32,760 bases of DNA, taken from NCBI GenBank assembly GCA_017412025.1, contig JAFQOY010000169.1:1-32760 (forward strand), given 5' to 3'. The stretch comes from Clostridia bacterium (lineage in GTDB: Bacteria > Bacillota_A > Clostridia > Christensenellales > Aristaeellaceae). Under the pieces are notes generated by a model. That model saw only the letters and a list, made by a program, of their open reading frames with translations, ran no database searches and was not told the DNA's origin. Of this stretch, positions 27,941 through 32,760 are shown one piece after another. The position numbers and the translations under genes are program-made. Position 1 is the stretch's first letter. Each line of letters starts with the position of its first letter.

Positions 27941-29686
27941 ATGGCTTTGAAGAAAGAAGTTTTTAAAGCAAGGCCCAAACGCGCAGCTGCAAGGACGGCT
28001 GAGAATCCGGACAGACAGGCGGCCGTGAAAGCGGCAGAGAAGAGGGCTGCAGAAAAGAAGGCTCCAGAAAAGAAGGACACAGACAAGAAGGCTGCAGAAA
28101 GAAAAGCCGCAGAGAAGAAGGCGGCGGGAAAGAGACGGGCTGCGGACAAGCCGGAAGAAAAAAAGCCGACGACCAGGAAGACGGAGAACCGGAAAACGGC
28201 AGACAGGCAACCTGGGATCGGAAAGACGGCGGAAAAAAAGCCGGAAGAAAAGAAGAGCGCGGAAAAGAAAGCTGCTCCGCCCAAAGGGCGCGGGACGAGC
28301 GCGGCAGAAAAGAAAACCGTGCGAAAGCGGGCAGTGGTCAAAGAGGCGGAAAAGAAGCCGATCCCGCGCCGGGAATCCGGCCGGGAAAGACGCAGACGGG
28401 AGAAGATGGACGCCGTTTACCGCGACCGCAGGCGTGCGGTCAGCCGGGGCGCGGACATGAAAACAATCCTGATCGCGCTGCTGACGGCGCTTTTTGAAGG
28501 ATTCGGGCTATTGCTGTGCGCCGTGCGCACGCCGGGCGTCTTTGACACGCAGGCGCTGACGCTGCTGGCGGTCATGGCGCCGCTGTGCATGGCGACGGCG
28601 CTGGTTCTTCCGCGCCTGCTGCCGATTGACCCGCTGCTGATGGCGCTGACCAATTTTCTCTGCGGCGTGGGCGTGGTGATCCTCTACACCGTATCGCCTG
28701 AACGCGGCGCAAAGCAGGCGGCATATTATGTGCTGGGTATTGCGGCGATGATCGTCGTCAGCCTGATCGTGTTTCATAAGCGGCGCTTCAAGGGGCTTGC
28801 GATGCTGTCAATGGTGCTGGGGATCGGCGCGCTGATTCTGCCGCTGGCGTTTGGCGAGTGGTCCGGCGGCGCCAAAAACTGGGTGCAGCTGCCGTTTATC
28901 GGATCGTTCCAGCCGAGCGAGCTGGTCAAGCTTTCTCTGGTGCTGTCGATGGCGTATTACTTCAGCGCGCACAGAACGGTCTTTCAGATGATGCCGGCGA
29001 TTCTCTTTGCCGGCGCGTGCCTGCTTCTGCTGATGCTGCAGCGGGATCTGGGTACAGCGCTGATCTACTATGCGACGACGCTTGTGCTCTTTTATGCGGC
29101 GTGCGGCAACGTGCCGCTGACGGTGATCGGCCTTGGCGGCGGCGCGGCAGCGGCCGTGCTTGGATACAGAATGTTCGCGCATGTGAAGGTGCGCGTGGCC
29201 ATGTGGCGCAACCCATGGAGCGATCCGCTTGACAAGGGCTATCAGATCATTCAGGCGCTGCTGGCCATCGGCTCGGGCGGTCTGTTCGGCGTGGGGCTTG
29301 GGCAGGGGACGCCGGATATGATTCCTGCGTATTATAACGACTTTATCTTTGCCGTCATCTGCGAGCAGCTGGGGCTGATCTTCGGCCTGCTGGTGATGGC
29401 GGTGTATGTGCTGCTGGTGCTGCGGGGCGTGTCGGTCATCTCCCGCGCGCGGCGCTCGTTTGACATGCTGCTGGGGTGCGGCGTGCTGGCGATGCTGGCC
29501 ATTCAGACGCTCATGATTGTGGGCGGCGTCATCAAGATGCTGCCGCTGACGGGCGTGACGATGCCGTTTATCAGCTACGGCGGCTCCTCGCTTCTCTCCT
29601 GCATGATGATGATCGGGATTCTCAACGGCATCAGCGCCCGGGCGCAGCAGGACATGGAGGACGATATTCTGGGAATCAAAGAATAA
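27941..29686 (+). CDS. SEDS-family peptidoglycan polymerase (FtsW/RodA/SpoVE) with Lys-rich N-terminal tail
   Basis: A 581-aa protein. Residues 1 to about 172 are a soluble Lys/Ala/Glu-rich tail with many near-repeats (AAEKKAPEKK, KAAERKAAEKK); membrane segments start at about residue 174. The SEDS core has all expected motifs: FQPSELVKLSLVL, QRDLGTALIYY with the catalytic-type Asp, KGYQIIQALLAIGSGGLFGVGLG, DFIFAVICEQLG and MPFISYGGSSLL. It polymerises glycan strands from lipid II with a partner class B PBP, which is the next gene. Whether it serves division, elongation or spore cortex is not clear. The start at 27941 is 4 nt after the FHA stop; ATG 28457 would remove the tail but has no strong ribosome site. 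Confidence 0.9.
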   Translation: MALKKEVFKARPKRAAARTAENPDRQAAVKAAEKRAAEKKAPEKKDTDKKAAERKAAEKKAAGKRRAADKPEEKKPTTRKTENRKTADRQPGIGKTAEKKPEEKKSAEKKAAPPKGRGTSAAEKKTVRKRAVVKEAEKKPIPRRESGRERRRREKMDAVYRDRRRAVSRGADMKTILIALLTALFEGFGLLLCAVRTPGVFDTQALTLLAVMAPLCMATALVLPRLLPIDPLLMALTNFLCGVGVVILYTVSPERGAKQAAYYVLGIAAMIVVSLIVFHKRRFKGLAMLSMVLGIGALILPLAFGEWSGGAKNWVQLPFIGSFQPSELVKLSLVLSMAYYFSAHRTVFQMMPAILFAGACLLLLMLQRDLGTALIYYATTLVLFYAACGNVPLTVIGLGGGAAAAVLGYRMFAHVKVRVAMWRNPWSDPLDKGYQIIQALLAIGSGGLFGVGLGQGTPDMIPAYYNDFIFAVICEQLGLIFGLLVMAVYVLLVLRGVSVISRARRSFDMLLGCGVLAMLAIQTLMIVGGVIKMLPLTGVTMPFISYGGSSLLSCMMMIGILNGISARAQQDMEDDILGIKE

Positions 29687-29740: not shown

Positions 29741-31150
29741 ATCAAGGTAATCAAGCGGCGGATTCATATGCTGACGATGCTGATGCTCGCGCTGTTTGGC
29801 CTGATGGCGGCATACTTCTGCTATTCGGTCTATTTTTACGGCGGCAGATGGATGGGCAATCCGCATAATCCGCGCATCTCCAGCCAGAAGCAGGAGGTGA
29901 TCATGGGCACGGTCACGGACAGGGACGGAACGGTGCTGGCCTATACCGACGAACAGACGGGCAGGCGGAAATACCATGGGAGCCGCGACACGCGCATGGC
30001 TGTTTCTCAGGTCATCGGCGACAGCGGCGGCAAGGCGTCGGCGGGCGTGGATACGTTCCACGCACAGTACATGCTGGGCTTCAGATCCAGCGTCTTTGAG
30101 CGCGTGGCCGACGCGCTGACGGGAACGCCTCAGCGCGGTGACGACATCTGCCTGACGATCTCCGAGCGGCTTTCACGCTATATCAGCGAACAGTTTCCTG
30201 AGGGGAAGCGCGGCGCAGTCGTCGTGCTCAATTATAAAACAAACGAGATTCTCTCGATGGTATCCATGCCGCAGTTTGATCCCATGAATCTGGAAGCGGC
30301 GCTTTCTGACGAGGAGGCGGGCGCGCTGATCAACCGCGCGACGCAGGGTCTGTATCCGCCGGGATCGACGTTCAAGATTGTTACGCTGGCGTCTGCGCTT
30401 GAGAATCTGCCGGATCTTCAGGACTTCGCCTTTGACTGCACGGGCTATTACCCGGTGGGCAATTATTCGGTGACGGAAAAGGAAGGGCACGGCTTTCAGT
30501 CGCTGTCCGACGCCTTTGCCAGCTCGTGCAATACGGCGTTTGCCGCGCTGTCGCAGGAGCTGGGATACGGCATGCTGGGACAGACGGCGGAGAAGCTCGG
30601 ATTCAATGAGAACTTTCTCTTTGGCGATCTGATCGTGTACAATTCGAGCTATCCCATCGATTACCTGAGTCCGGAGGATCTGGCGTGGTCGTCGATCGGC
30701 CAGGGGCGCGTGCTGACGACGCCGATGCATATGGCGCTGATCGCTTCGGCGATCGCCAATGGGGGCGTGATGCACGAGCCGCACCTGCTGCGGGAGATCA
30801 CCACGGCGCAGGGCGCGCGGCAAAAGCTGCCGGGCAGCTTTGAGGGCGTGCGCGTGCTGGAGGAAAGCGCGGCGGAGAGAATTGAACGGGAGATGATCCG
30901 CGTCGTCAAATCCGGAACGGGTTCGCGGGCTGCGCTTGGAAACGGCTACATCGTCGCCGGAAAAACCGGCTCGGCGGAGGTCAGCAACGATAAGAGCGTC
31001 GAGTCGCATGCGTGGTTTGTCGGCTATATCACCAATGACAACGCCCCGTACGCGGTATGCGTGCTGGTGGAAAACGGAGGTTCGGGCGGCGGCGTGGCTG
31101 CGCCGCTGGCCAGAAAGACGCTGCAGAAGGCCGTCAATCTGGGCCTTTGA
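29741..31150 (+). CDS. Class B penicillin-binding protein (transpeptidase), likely ATC start
   Basis: A 469-aa protein if begun at ATC 29741 (460 aa from ATG 29768). From the ATC it starts with a basic IKVIKRRIH before the single membrane helix, which is the usual N terminus of this class; there is no ATG, GTG or TTG between the SEDS stop and 29768. The dimerisation part is short and lies at about 45-150. The transpeptidase motifs are STFK (Ser200, ATG numbering), SCN (253-255) and KTG (399-401). It cross-links peptidoglycan outside the membrane and is the expected partner of the SEDS protein. It is followed by a 37-nt gap and then a solute-binding gene. Confidence 0.9.
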   Translation: MKVIKRRIHMLTMLMLALFGLMAAYFCYSVYFYGGRWMGNPHNPRISSQKQEVIMGTVTDRDGTVLAYTDEQTGRRKYHGSRDTRMAVSQVIGDSGGKASAGVDTFHAQYMLGFRSSVFERVADALTGTPQRGDDICLTISERLSRYISEQFPEGKRGAVVVLNYKTNEILSMVSMPQFDPMNLEAALSDEEAGALINRATQGLYPPGSTFKIVTLASALENLPDLQDFAFDCTGYYPVGNYSVTEKEGHGFQSLSDAFASSCNTAFAALSQELGYGMLGQTAEKLGFNENFLFGDLIVYNSSYPIDYLSPEDLAWSSIGQGRVLTTPMHMALIASAIANGGVMHEPHLLREITTAQGARQKLPGSFEGVRVLEESAAERIEREMIRVVKSGTGSRAALGNGYIVAGKTGSAEVSNDKSVESHAWFVGYITNDNAPYAVCVLVENGGSGGGVAAPLARKTLQKAVNLGL

Positions 31151-31187: not shown

Positions 31188-32291
31188 ATGAGAAAATGGA
31201 TGACCGGACTGGCAGGATTATGCATGCTGGCGCTGTGGGCAGGCGCATCGCTGGCGGCGGGCGTGACGCTGCATGTGCTGACGCCGTTTGCTGATATGGA
31301 TTTTGCCGCGCAGGGCTATATGGATATGATCACGGCCTGGGAAAGCGAAACGGGCAACGTGGTGGAGGATTATTCCGGCCTGCCGGACGAGGCGCTGATG
31401 GCGCAGCTTGGGGAGCTGATTGAATCGGGCGCGGCGGACGTCGTCGTGCTGCCGGTGGGCTCCGGGCTGACGGTCGGCGAATTGGTGAGCGCAGGAGAGC
31501 TGGAGCAGGCGATGGAAGGCGGCGTGCGGCGCTTTTCTTCCATGAAAGAGGAGGACGGCAGCATTCTGCTGACGCCTGTGCGCATGTACTGGGAAGCGCT
31601 GTATGTGAATACGGATGTGCTGGAAAAGTACGGCATTGCCGTGCCCAGGACGTTTGAACAGCTGCTTGCGGCCTGCGCGCTGCTTTCCCAGAATGGCGTG
31701 ACGCCCATCGCCAATGCGCTGTGCGACTGGAGCGAGATTGTGCTCAACTGCGCGGCGCTTGCCGGCGCGGATGCGGCGCAGTACGGACAGGAGGCGTCGC
31801 TTGAGGGCGCAAAGAACGTGCTTGAGATGCTTGTTCAGGTCGGCGCCTTTGGCGGAGATCCGTGGAATGTATCGGACGCGGACATGGAACAGGCGTTTCT
31901 TTCCGGCGAGGCGGCGATGCGTTTTGACGCGGACAGTCTCGCGTATATGGTGGATGAATCGCGGCTGGATCAGACGGTTGTGACGGCTGTGCCGGTGATG
32001 CATGGCACGACGGGCGATGTGATCGTGGGCGTGCCGACGTTCGGCGCGGCGATTACGCGCAGCTGCTGGCAGGATGACGCACGGTTTGAGGCGGCGCTGT
32101 CGCTGCTGGGCAGGATGCTCTCCGGCGATGGATTCAGGGCGCTGTGCGCGCCGGTGGGCGGAGAGCTTGGTCGGAGCATTGCGCAGATGACGGCCGACGC
32201 CAAAGACTGCAGCGGCATTCTCTATGACATGAACCCGGACGGCTTTGACGCATGGGCGGAAAAGACCGTTGCCTCGCTGATGGGCAGGTAA
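31188..32291 (+). CDS. Extracellular solute-binding protein (ABC transporter type 1)
   Basis: A 367-aa secreted protein starting at ATG 31188 behind AAAGGAGG. It has a signal peptide (about 1-24, ending ASLAAG) with no lipobox cysteine, so anchoring to the membrane is not evident. The body has the family 1 pattern: VTLHVLTPFADMDFAAQGYMDMITAWESETGNVV, RMYWEALYVNTDVLEKYGIAVP, and later FLSGEAAMRFDADSLAYMV. It would bind a sugar or other small solute and hand it to an ABC permease, but no permease or ATPase is in the window. It follows the PBP closely and may be co-transcribed. Confidence 0.82.
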   Translation: MRKWMTGLAGLCMLALWAGASLAAGVTLHVLTPFADMDFAAQGYMDMITAWESETGNVVEDYSGLPDEALMAQLGELIESGAADVVVLPVGSGLTVGELVSAGELEQAMEGGVRRFSSMKEEDGSILLTPVRMYWEALYVNTDVLEKYGIAVPRTFEQLLAACALLSQNGVTPIANALCDWSEIVLNCAALAGADAAQYGQEASLEGAKNVLEMLVQVGAFGGDPWNVSDADMEQAFLSGEAAMRFDADSLAYMVDESRLDQTVVTAVPVMHGTTGDVIVGVPTFGAAITRSCWQDDARFEAALSLLGRMLSGDGFRALCAPVGGELGRSIAQMTADAKDCSGILYDMNPDGFDAWAEKTVASLMGR

Positions 32292-32304: not shown

Positions 32305-32584
32305 AAAAAACAGGGCTTTGCGGCCCTCAGACCGTCAACAAAGTATTGTTGACGGTCTGTCGCTGCAAGTCTGCTAACGCATACTTGCAGCGGATAAAAC
32401 ATCATTTTCTTGTACGCTGCGCGTACGGCCAGAAAATGATATAGGAAGCGGCTTGTAGCCGCTCCTCGCACCGCGCATGTCGCTGCTGCGGATTTCATAT
32501 GAAGGGGCTGCAGCCCCTTCATGCATCCCCAAAGTTTAAAACAGACTTTATTGATAATCTGAGGGCTTTGCGGCCCTGTTTTTG
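32305..32584. repeat. Structured intergenic element with inverted terminal hairpins and nested palindromes
   Basis: Ends: AAAAAACAGGGC and GCCCTCAGA on the left (32305-32331) are the inverse of TCTGAGGGC and GCCCTGTTTTT on the right (32558-32583). Inside, in order: 14-bp hairpin at 32328-32359 (loop AGTA); 10-bp CGCTGCAAGT/ACTTGCAGCG (32361-32392, 12-nt loop); 10-bp ATCATTTTCT/AGAAAATGAT (32401-32440) holding GTACGC/GCGTAC; GCGGCT/AGCCGC (32448-32462); and a perfect 24-bp palindrome (32499-32522). Both end hairpins have outward T tracts on the appropriate strand, so each also acts as a terminator. It lies between convergent genes. It may be a MITE-like repeat or a structured RNA; no transposase or coding frame is seen. 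Confidence 0.7.
32562..32583 (+). terminator. Right-end hairpin, terminator for the rightward operon
   Basis: AGGGC (32562-32566) with GCCCT (32573-32577) followed by GTTTTT. The equivalent left-end hairpin (32312-32327) has a T run on the minus strand (32310-32305) and would stop leftward transcription. Confidence 0.65.
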
Positions 32585-32595
32585 TATGCGCATAT

Positions 32596-32760
32596 TCAGC
32601 AGAATGCGAATCCGACGAGCGTAAGAAGAAGCAGCAGCACTGCGCAGCAGAAGATGCAAAGAAAGATGCCTTGTGCAATGTCGCCCGCCATCGGCGGATG
32701 CGTTTTGGTTTCGTCCTCTGCGACGCCCAGCGTGCTCAGCAGGAGCGTGCGCGCGTCGGA
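32596..32760 (-). CDS. C-terminal end of a small membrane protein (partial)
   Basis: An open frame on the minus strand runs from the window edge to a TGA at 32598-32596; the visible 54 residues end with DIAQGIFLCIFCCAVLLLLTL, a C-terminal membrane helix followed by VGFAFC. It was not marked by a start codon because the gene begins outside the window. Its location just beyond the terminal hairpin of the element, with leftward termination at 32305, supports a real gene. I do not recognise a family. The chance of a shadow frame is moderate. Confidence 0.5.
   Translation of the reverse strand, partial: SDARTLLLSTLGVAEDETKTHPPMAGDIAQGIFLCIFCCAVLLLLLTLVGFAFC

Follow-up and report, generated by a model that had tools for sequence, protein, structure and literature searches.

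The target duplications of IS1630, an autonomous insertion sequence of the IS30 family with 27-bp ends in Mycoplasma fermentans, vary in length, and the description of four copies gives values of 16, 23, 25 and 26 bp (PMC3317919). A gene-less repeat from Yersinia named YPAL (or RU-2), a palindromic sequence of ~168 bp, is described as generating target duplications of 3-26 bp at, or adjoining, sites of dyad symmetry; filled and empty sites were compared, and an effect on upstream transcripts was considered possible (PMC2229807). Here, an element with related behaviour is described from a 32,760-nucleotide stretch of DNA of a Clostridia bacterium (contig JAFQOY010000169.1), the whole of which is referred to as the window. 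Region 32305-32584 of the window is a single insertion, in which a 234-bp element stands between two 16-bp terminator hairpins. It is very probably a non-autonomous element, similar to a miniature inverted-repeat transposable element (MITE), that inserted in a bidirectional terminator and duplicated the terminator hairpin, presumably through the action of an IS30-family transposase and, less certainly, with later retention of some copies in 3' untranslated regions (3' UTRs).

In its target behaviour the element appears to work like IS1630, with duplications of variable length and a target that is itself an inverted repeat. Unlike IS1630, it is a 234-bp sequence that carries no gene, has a multi-hairpin core and resides in Clostridia. 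Compared by description, the nearest named repeat in behaviour is YPAL, which is likewise palindromic and gene-less and is targeted to dyad symmetries; in contrast to the element described here, the inverted repeats of YPAL are internal, and the passage that describes it names no partner transposase (PMC2229807). BOX, RUP and SPRITE of Streptococcus pneumoniae are structured non-autonomous repeats that are over-represented between convergent genes; BOX is modular, and the ends of RUP and BOX resemble those of the insertion sequences IS630 and ISSpn2, respectively (PMC3049150). Structure and a preference for the 3' ends of genes are common to these repeats and to the present element, whereas the published passage on BOX, RUP and SPRITE does not mention duplication of a whole terminator (PMC3049150). 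ERIC and Correia/NEMIS are also structured, are co-transcribed with neighbouring genes and can alter the processing or stability of messenger RNA (mRNA) (PMC10969869, PMC2229807). Their hosts differ from that of this element, and they are likened to it here by the structure and co-transcription described.

The two ends of the insertion had been taken, in an initial annotation made from the sequence, for inverted copies of one hairpin. They are in fact direct copies of AGGGCTTTGCGGCCCT, 100% identical, and represent a duplicated target; each end appears inverted because the hairpin is itself palindromic. The same annotation had recorded that the TTTGCG loops of both ends are equally oriented, which is correct and was a clue to the direct duplication. 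When the element and one hairpin are removed in a script, the remaining sequence is AAAAAACAGGGCTTTGCGGCCCTGTTTTTG, a single bidirectional terminator, and the joined flanks (55 nt) fold as one terminator at -21.6 kcal/mol. Before the insertion the site should have consisted of one terminator, AAAAACAGGGCTTTGCGGCCCTGTTTTT, and this is the sequence expected at an empty site. In the filled site, the A tract of this terminator stays with the left hairpin, and the T tract with the right one.

The element is not confined to the window. BLASTN searches gave matches at E≤0.01 in five of six genomes and up to 27 matches in one genome; some are opposite-strand echoes of the palindromes, and the match in G005 covers 20 bp of the left end only. 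A covariance model, R1, was built from an alignment of 16 copies and found 53 matches at E≤0.01 in five of the six genomes, again with some reverse-strand echoes. Within one Clostridia family, that of G001, R1 has matches at E≤1e-3 in at least 95 of 200 sampled genomes. At E≤1e-8, at least 59 of these 200 genomes (counted by hand) are positive, versus at least one of 299 genomes sampled across the phylum; as 14 candidates were scored per genome in the family and nine in the phylum, both counts are lower bounds and the comparison is not a strict one. The sole positive genome of the phylum-wide set is G001 itself. As far as sampled, the repeat thus appears to be confined to one lineage.

For the analysis of insertion sites, copies below about 50 bits were excluded (23 of 128 in a first set and 9 of 86 in a later one) and duplicates were merged, which gave 101 copies in the first set and 177 distinct copies in the enlarged set. 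Copies and genomes were chosen mainly from the best-scoring matches, and some copies are orthologous to each other, so that the counts given below are not counts of independent events. Neither the window nor any of 20 loci that carry copies matched an Rfam family at gathering score. Two hairpins and the UAUAGGA after them align weakly to TD-1 RNA (RF03155) at 22.6 bits (E 0.14), a value far short of the gathering score (64.5); this alignment was rejected as a chance similarity. No description of this repeat family was found in the open-access literature, a scope within which publication elsewhere is possible.

Target duplication is frequent among the copies. In the first set, a flanking direct repeat (score ≥12) accompanies 25 of 101 copies and none of 505 mispaired flanks. 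In the enlarged set the repeat is present at 58 of 177 copies, compared with 9 of 885 randomly mispaired flanks and 57 of 1728 flanks mispaired within the same genome. The repeated units are usually terminator hairpins of 12-44 bp, with a different sequence at each site, and 74% of the 58 contain a perfect stem of at least 5 bp, as against 11% of shuffled units. The terminators are split in the same way as that of the window: the 8 nt before the left repeat contain 3.9 A on average versus 2.1 (p=2e-8), and the 8 nt after the right repeat contain 4.2 T versus 2.2 (p=1e-6; n=58 in both cases). The spacing between the duplications is 170-326 bp in the 58 copies, a short interval without a transposase gene, as in MITEs. 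The terminal inverted repeats of the L186 copy (G099) match at 14 of 16 positions, as counted from the sequence. Another copy in G099, L187, has intact ends, but no clear hairpin is seen where it is inserted, and the duplication there is perhaps one of 6 bp (AGATTT); targets may therefore extend beyond terminators.

Empty sites have been encountered at two places. Locus L139 of G180 reads terminator, element, terminator, while the orthologous locus L211 of G139 has one terminator and no element, and the flanks of the two are 93% identical on both sides. The gap between pgk and tpi is filled in G140 and G003 (L243 and L040) and is empty, with a length of 10-15 nt, in G001, G101 and G002 (L292-L294); the flanks are 84-92% identical between filled and empty genomes, and no target duplication was detected at this site. 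Insertion in terminators, duplication of the whole hairpin, retention of the A and T tracts and the existence of an empty site are all supported at the level of sequence. A non-autonomous mobile repeat was among the explanations offered initially, together with BLASTN searches of related genomes and covariance modelling as ways of checking it. That explanation is now strongly supported: the copies lie at unrelated loci and have terminal inverted repeats, target duplications occur, and an orthologous site is empty. The searches yielded many copies in relatives and covarying stems, with no match to Rfam at gathering score, and the outcomes named initially as refuting did not arise. The observation is real, and what was observed is mainly a mobile repeat.

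The interior of the element consists of hairpins. After the end hairpin P0, their order is P-A, P-B, P-C, P-E and P-D. The packed stems that were initially called perfect are perfect or near-perfect in P0, P-A, P-B, P-C and P-D (coordinates in the table), with P-A falling short at 13 of 14 bp. Folding energies of the 280 nt are -141.2 kcal/mol (z -11.6) for the + strand and -144 kcal/mol (z -12.3) for the - strand, and none of 200 shuffles was as low on either strand. In an RNAalifold analysis of 16 copies, 14 of 42 pairs have changes on both sides; shuffled alignments give 5.9 +/- 1.5 such pairs, and slid ones 1 to 4. Thus, the sequence of the interior hairpins varies while their pairing is retained. 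In P-A (helix 1 of the alignment), 95.3% of cells are paired and 6 of 12 pairs show both-sided changes; in P-C (helix 3), the figures are 100% and 4 of 9. P-A is wholly different even between copies within G162, which would fit replacement of the hairpin or correction between its arms as well as it would fit selection. In four close orthologous pairs of filled sites (core identity 93-99%), changes are found at 10 of 550 paired sites versus 17 of 206 unpaired sites (p=8e-5). The core is far less diverged than the flanks in two of these pairs (1 of 192 and 1 of 195 positions; p=2e-4 and 1e-3), and in the other two core and flank divergence do not differ (p=0.73 and 0.87).

Table. Features of the insertion and of its surroundings in the window.
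Feature	Position	Strand	Basis
A tract (AAAAAAC) from the pre-insertion bidirectional terminator, retained at the left copy	32305..32311	.	sequence; fold of joined flanks
Left target-duplication copy, terminator hairpin AGGGCTTTGCGGCCCT	32312..32327	+	direct repeat, 100% identical to 32562-32577
Mobile element proper, 234 bp	32328..32561	+	delimited by the duplication; R1 match at 32361-32530, 183.7 bits (not independent, as the window copy is one of the 16 sequences used to build R1)
Left terminal inverted repeat CAGACCGTCAACAAAG	32328..32343	+	12/16 match to the right end
Hairpin P0, 14-bp stem, made by the left end	32328..32359	+	perfect or near-perfect stem
Hairpin P-A, 13/14 bp stem, sequence highly variable among copies	32361..32392	+	covariation helix 1
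Hairpin P-B (ATCATTTTCT..AGAAAATGAT), 10 bp plus inner stem	32401..32440	+	repeat pair; fold
Hairpin P-C, one-base asymmetry (GGA-A-GCGGC..GCCGCTCC)	32444..32465	+	covariation helix 3; sequence, fold
Hairpin P-E	32466..32491	+	covariation helix 4
Hairpin P-D (ATGAAGGGGCTGCAGCCCCTTCAT)	32499..32522	+	repeat pair; covariation helix 5
Right terminal inverted repeat CTTTATTGATAATCTG	32546..32561	+	12/16 match to the left end
Right target-duplication copy, terminator hairpin AGGGCTTTGCGGCCCT	32562..32577	+	100% identical to 32312-32327
T tract of the original terminator, retained at the right copy	32579..32583	+	sequence; split as in the 58 repeat-bearing copies
RodA/FtsW-type cell-cycle protein gene	27941..29686	+	Pfam PF01098, E 1.8e-72; context
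Penicillin-binding protein transpeptidase gene	29768..31150	+	Pfam PF00905, E 3.5e-57; context
Extracellular solute-binding protein gene, the element's immediate upstream neighbour (start codon picked by eye)	31188..32291	+	Pfam PF01547, E 6.6e-13; relatives L001-L006
Convergent gene, 3' end (the gene is cut by the window edge)	32596..32760	-	translated frame; matching protein end in L001; BLASTN match in L003, 73%

The link to a transposase comes from genome G045. This genome contains an IS30 element of 1189 bp (L153, 1408-2596) with perfect inverted ends of 39 bp, which read GGGTGTTGACAAAGTCAACACCC and then TTCGAAAAAATGAAAA. Its transposase matches NF033563 (IS30) with 286.7 bits; the Pfam domain HTH_38 is above the cut-off and rve just below it. 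The first 27 bp of these ends occur 54 times in G045 at up to three mismatches, and not at all in the control. Among the first 20 end loci in G045 (exact matches), 17 lead to the repeat described here, one to the IS30 gene and two to the end of a contig. A hairpin (stem score ≥7) directly abuts the end at 15 of the 20, compared with 0.3% of 1000 shuffled flanks. In the copies of G045, P-A resembles a back-to-back arrangement of the inner arms of the two IS30 ends, as though an IS30-type element had given rise to the repeat by losing its inside. Descent from IS30 is supported by sequence in this one genome only, and the element is probably IS30-driven. By the defining features examined, the repeat belongs on sequence grounds to the MITE class, with ends shared with an autonomous insertion sequence in G045 only.

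Further IS30 loci and end motifs were inspected in other genomes. At 18 IS30 loci (L152-L169) the gene was placed by tblastn in 17, of which 10 have 400 bp on both sides. Short inverted ends are present at L167, L162, L161 and L165 (scores 15, 13, 11 and 11), and L155 has the common left end, but the end of the contig interrupts it. At 20 loci of G052, G099 and G101 that carry the end motif, no autonomous element was found; 16 of them have an R1 match at E≤0.01. The remaining four comprise two loci with the P0 and P-A hairpins only (L173 and L178) and two with different interiors (L177 and L189), and no transposase was recognised in the stretches inspected at these four loci, the rest of each locus lying outside the search.

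Taken together, a possible course of events can be proposed. An IS30-family transposase would recognise the ends of the element, that is P0 with the adjoining arm of P-A, would read the target hairpin and would cut at its two feet on opposite strands. Repair after such a staggered cut would duplicate the hairpin. As insertion copies the hairpin, both neighbouring genes should still have a terminator past the element, and host termination should be preserved. After insertion, and with less certainty, the element may become the 3' UTR of the upstream transcript, where it would form a structured tail of ~250 nt. Some copies might then be retained for their hairpins, which could, for example, block 3'-to-5' decay.

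The orientation of copies relative to genes bears on this later step. Gene orientation was taken from a self-trained pooled codon model, with which a Pfam check of sampled calls agreed in 10 of 10 sense and 9 of 10 antisense cases (the tenth antisense call had no Pfam match). Two alternative models were rejected: a two-group codon model performed poorly in high-GC genomes, and an amino-acid model collapsed onto shadow frames. A gene call is missing on one or both sides of 54 of the 177 copies; of the 123 with both neighbours called, four lie between divergent genes. Copies between tandem genes are sense to the upstream gene in 60 cases out of 77 and antisense in 17. With a target duplication, the tandem copies number 12 sense and 7 antisense (p=0.36), and without one 48 and 10 (p=5e-7). 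The distance from the stop codon also varies, with a median of 24 nt for copies without duplication (n=87, clustered at 5-8 nt) versus 71 nt for those with it (n=37).

Several of the genes upstream of sense copies are housekeeping genes. By Pfam, these include tpiA and the genes for glucose-6-phosphate isomerase and ribosomal protein L27; others, recognised from protein sequence, are presumably those for EF-Tu, phosphoglycerate kinase (pgk), glutamate dehydrogenase and seryl-tRNA synthetase. Copies follow pgk in G003, G140, G162, G130 and G183, and tpiA in G017 and G183. The tpiA gene of G017 was identified by Pfam, while the genes that we take to be pgk were named by eye from the protein sequence. 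A copy between pgk and tpi was considered as a family-wide conserved feature and rejected: among the 30 loci whose PGK is closest, only two hold the element, so this site is not generally conserved. The sense bias, together with hairpins that vary but remain paired, suggests that 3' UTR elements may have arisen from some copies. A broader proposal, rather less likely than not, is that the transposon family supplies ready-made 3' UTRs, and that the sense copies behind housekeeping genes, kept for their pairing irrespective of sequence, have turned into mRNA stability elements across the lineage.

A number of observations weigh against insertion by an IS30-type transposase followed by retention in 3' UTRs. 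A search at E≤1e-30 detected IS30-family genes above the family cut-off in only 15 of the 200 genomes from this Clostridia family. Long inverted ends are present at just one (L153) of the 10 IS30 loci with 400-bp flanks, and the IS30 of G140 (L152) does not share them. No direct repeat is found at 119 of the 177 copies, for which age or another mode of insertion has to be invoked. A sense bias restricted to copies without duplication was tested and was not established, as the bias is not significantly stronger in these than in the other tandem copies (Fisher p=0.11). In three distant pairs from the pgk site, paired positions are not protected: changes affect 24 of 118 paired versus 12 of 47 unpaired sites in one pair, 36 of 120 versus 12 of 43 in another and 24 of 108 versus 13 of 40 in the last, with 9, 3 and 11 broken pairs beside 4, 15 and 3 pair-keeping double changes, respectively; alignments are uncertain at the core identity of these pairs (71-78%). 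Nor do stem mismatches show a significant excess of G.T over A.C (18 versus 12, p=0.36). Because neither strand asymmetry of mismatches nor stem protection in distant pairs is seen, selection at the RNA level is not demonstrated. The long structured RNA that was also suggested in the initial annotation therefore stands in part: its stems covary and are kept in the four close orthologous pairs, while the mismatch pattern and the distant pairs do not bear it out. A chromosome-organising repeat, another of the initial suggestions, need not be invoked.

The same data can be read as those of a purely selfish element without cellular function, the stems of which are kept by a mutational process such as templated arm-to-arm correction of quasi-palindromes or conversion between copies. 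The probability of this falls only slightly short of even. Near-perfect stems and the mismatch counts would be expected under it, the differences of P-A within G162 look more like replacement than stepwise change, and the very low core divergence of two of the four close pairs could equally be produced by conversion. The sense bias speaks against such a process, as do the many duplication-less copies that follow a stop codon at a distance of only a few nucleotides. These two features would instead suit a stationary, cis-acting 3' UTR RNA (e.g., a stabiliser or a sponge) that spread by gene or operon duplication and never transposed, as would covariation and a pgk-tpi gap that is occupied in five genomes. 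However, duplicated terminators, split A and T tracts, ends shared with IS30 and empty sites all speak against a stationary RNA, and the sampled upstream genes are unrelated to each other. The empty site with a single terminator refutes it as a full account; it is highly improbable as such, and could be the later fate of some copies.

A different question is which transposase moves the repeat. It is possible, but rather unlikely, that most copies are moved by an enzyme outside the IS30 family and that the IS30 element of G045 merely borrowed the ends of the repeat. The repeat is far more widespread in the family than IS30 genes (at least 95 versus 15 of the 200 genomes), no IS30 gene was detected in the majority of repeat-bearing genomes, and the end sequences differ strongly between genomes. 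On the other hand, 14 of the 20 end loci in G045 stop within 300 bp of the motif; repeats break assemblies, and insertion sequences may be missing from them for this reason. Moreover, the duplication of hairpins of variable length is behaviour that has been reported for the IS30 type (PMC3317919). Movement by an IS30-family transposase is retained here as the probable explanation.

The repeat family is widespread and structured, has no match in Rfam at gathering level and belongs to a group of Clostridia with six named records, all of them metagenome bins. Its insertions make target choice visible, since terminators of any sequence are picked and copied. With many natural insertions, some of which have matching empty sites, one could test how a hairpin, and not a sequence, is read by a transposase. 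A further question that the family makes accessible is whether a whole class of 3' UTR elements can originate from mobile DNA.

The setting between convergent genes was described correctly from the outset: the solute-binding protein gene ends on the + strand at 32291, and the gene on the - strand ends at 32596-32598. Relatives of the solute-binding protein, with 54-65% identity, are present in six metagenome-assembled Clostridia. In two of the corresponding loci, L001 and L003, the convergent neighbour is also present, and the gap is an ordinary short terminator without the element. Further upstream in the window, the RodA/FtsW-type protein has a Lys/Ala-rich N-terminal extension of ~170 residues (27941-28450), which has a weak match, below the cut-off, to a histone H1-like Pfam family.

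Other sequences are associated with the repeat or its ends. In L015 (G001) and L029 (G006), a second repeat (TTCCGGGAAACTCRCATAG ... CTTGCGATTTCCG) is apparently inserted in the loop of P-C. A different element is found in L011 (G005) and L189 (G101), where the left end, CTCAGACCGTCAACAAAG or CTCAGACCGTCGACAAAG, follows a terminator-like hairpin and is itself followed by CCCATGTTTTGCAAGTCAAAACATGGGC and unrelated sequence; this is possibly another passenger of the same transposase. In L177 (G052, ~1450-1710), two hairpins of similar sequence (GGAGGGGCC) flank the end motif CAGACTGTCGACAAAG and the interior is a different one, perhaps a further passenger. Lastly, the internal hairpins of L186 and L188 (both in G099) are replaced or joined by another module (GAAAACAGTCCCCCGGACTGTTTTCCGGGCGCTTCGGCCCC), an exchange that points to a modular core.
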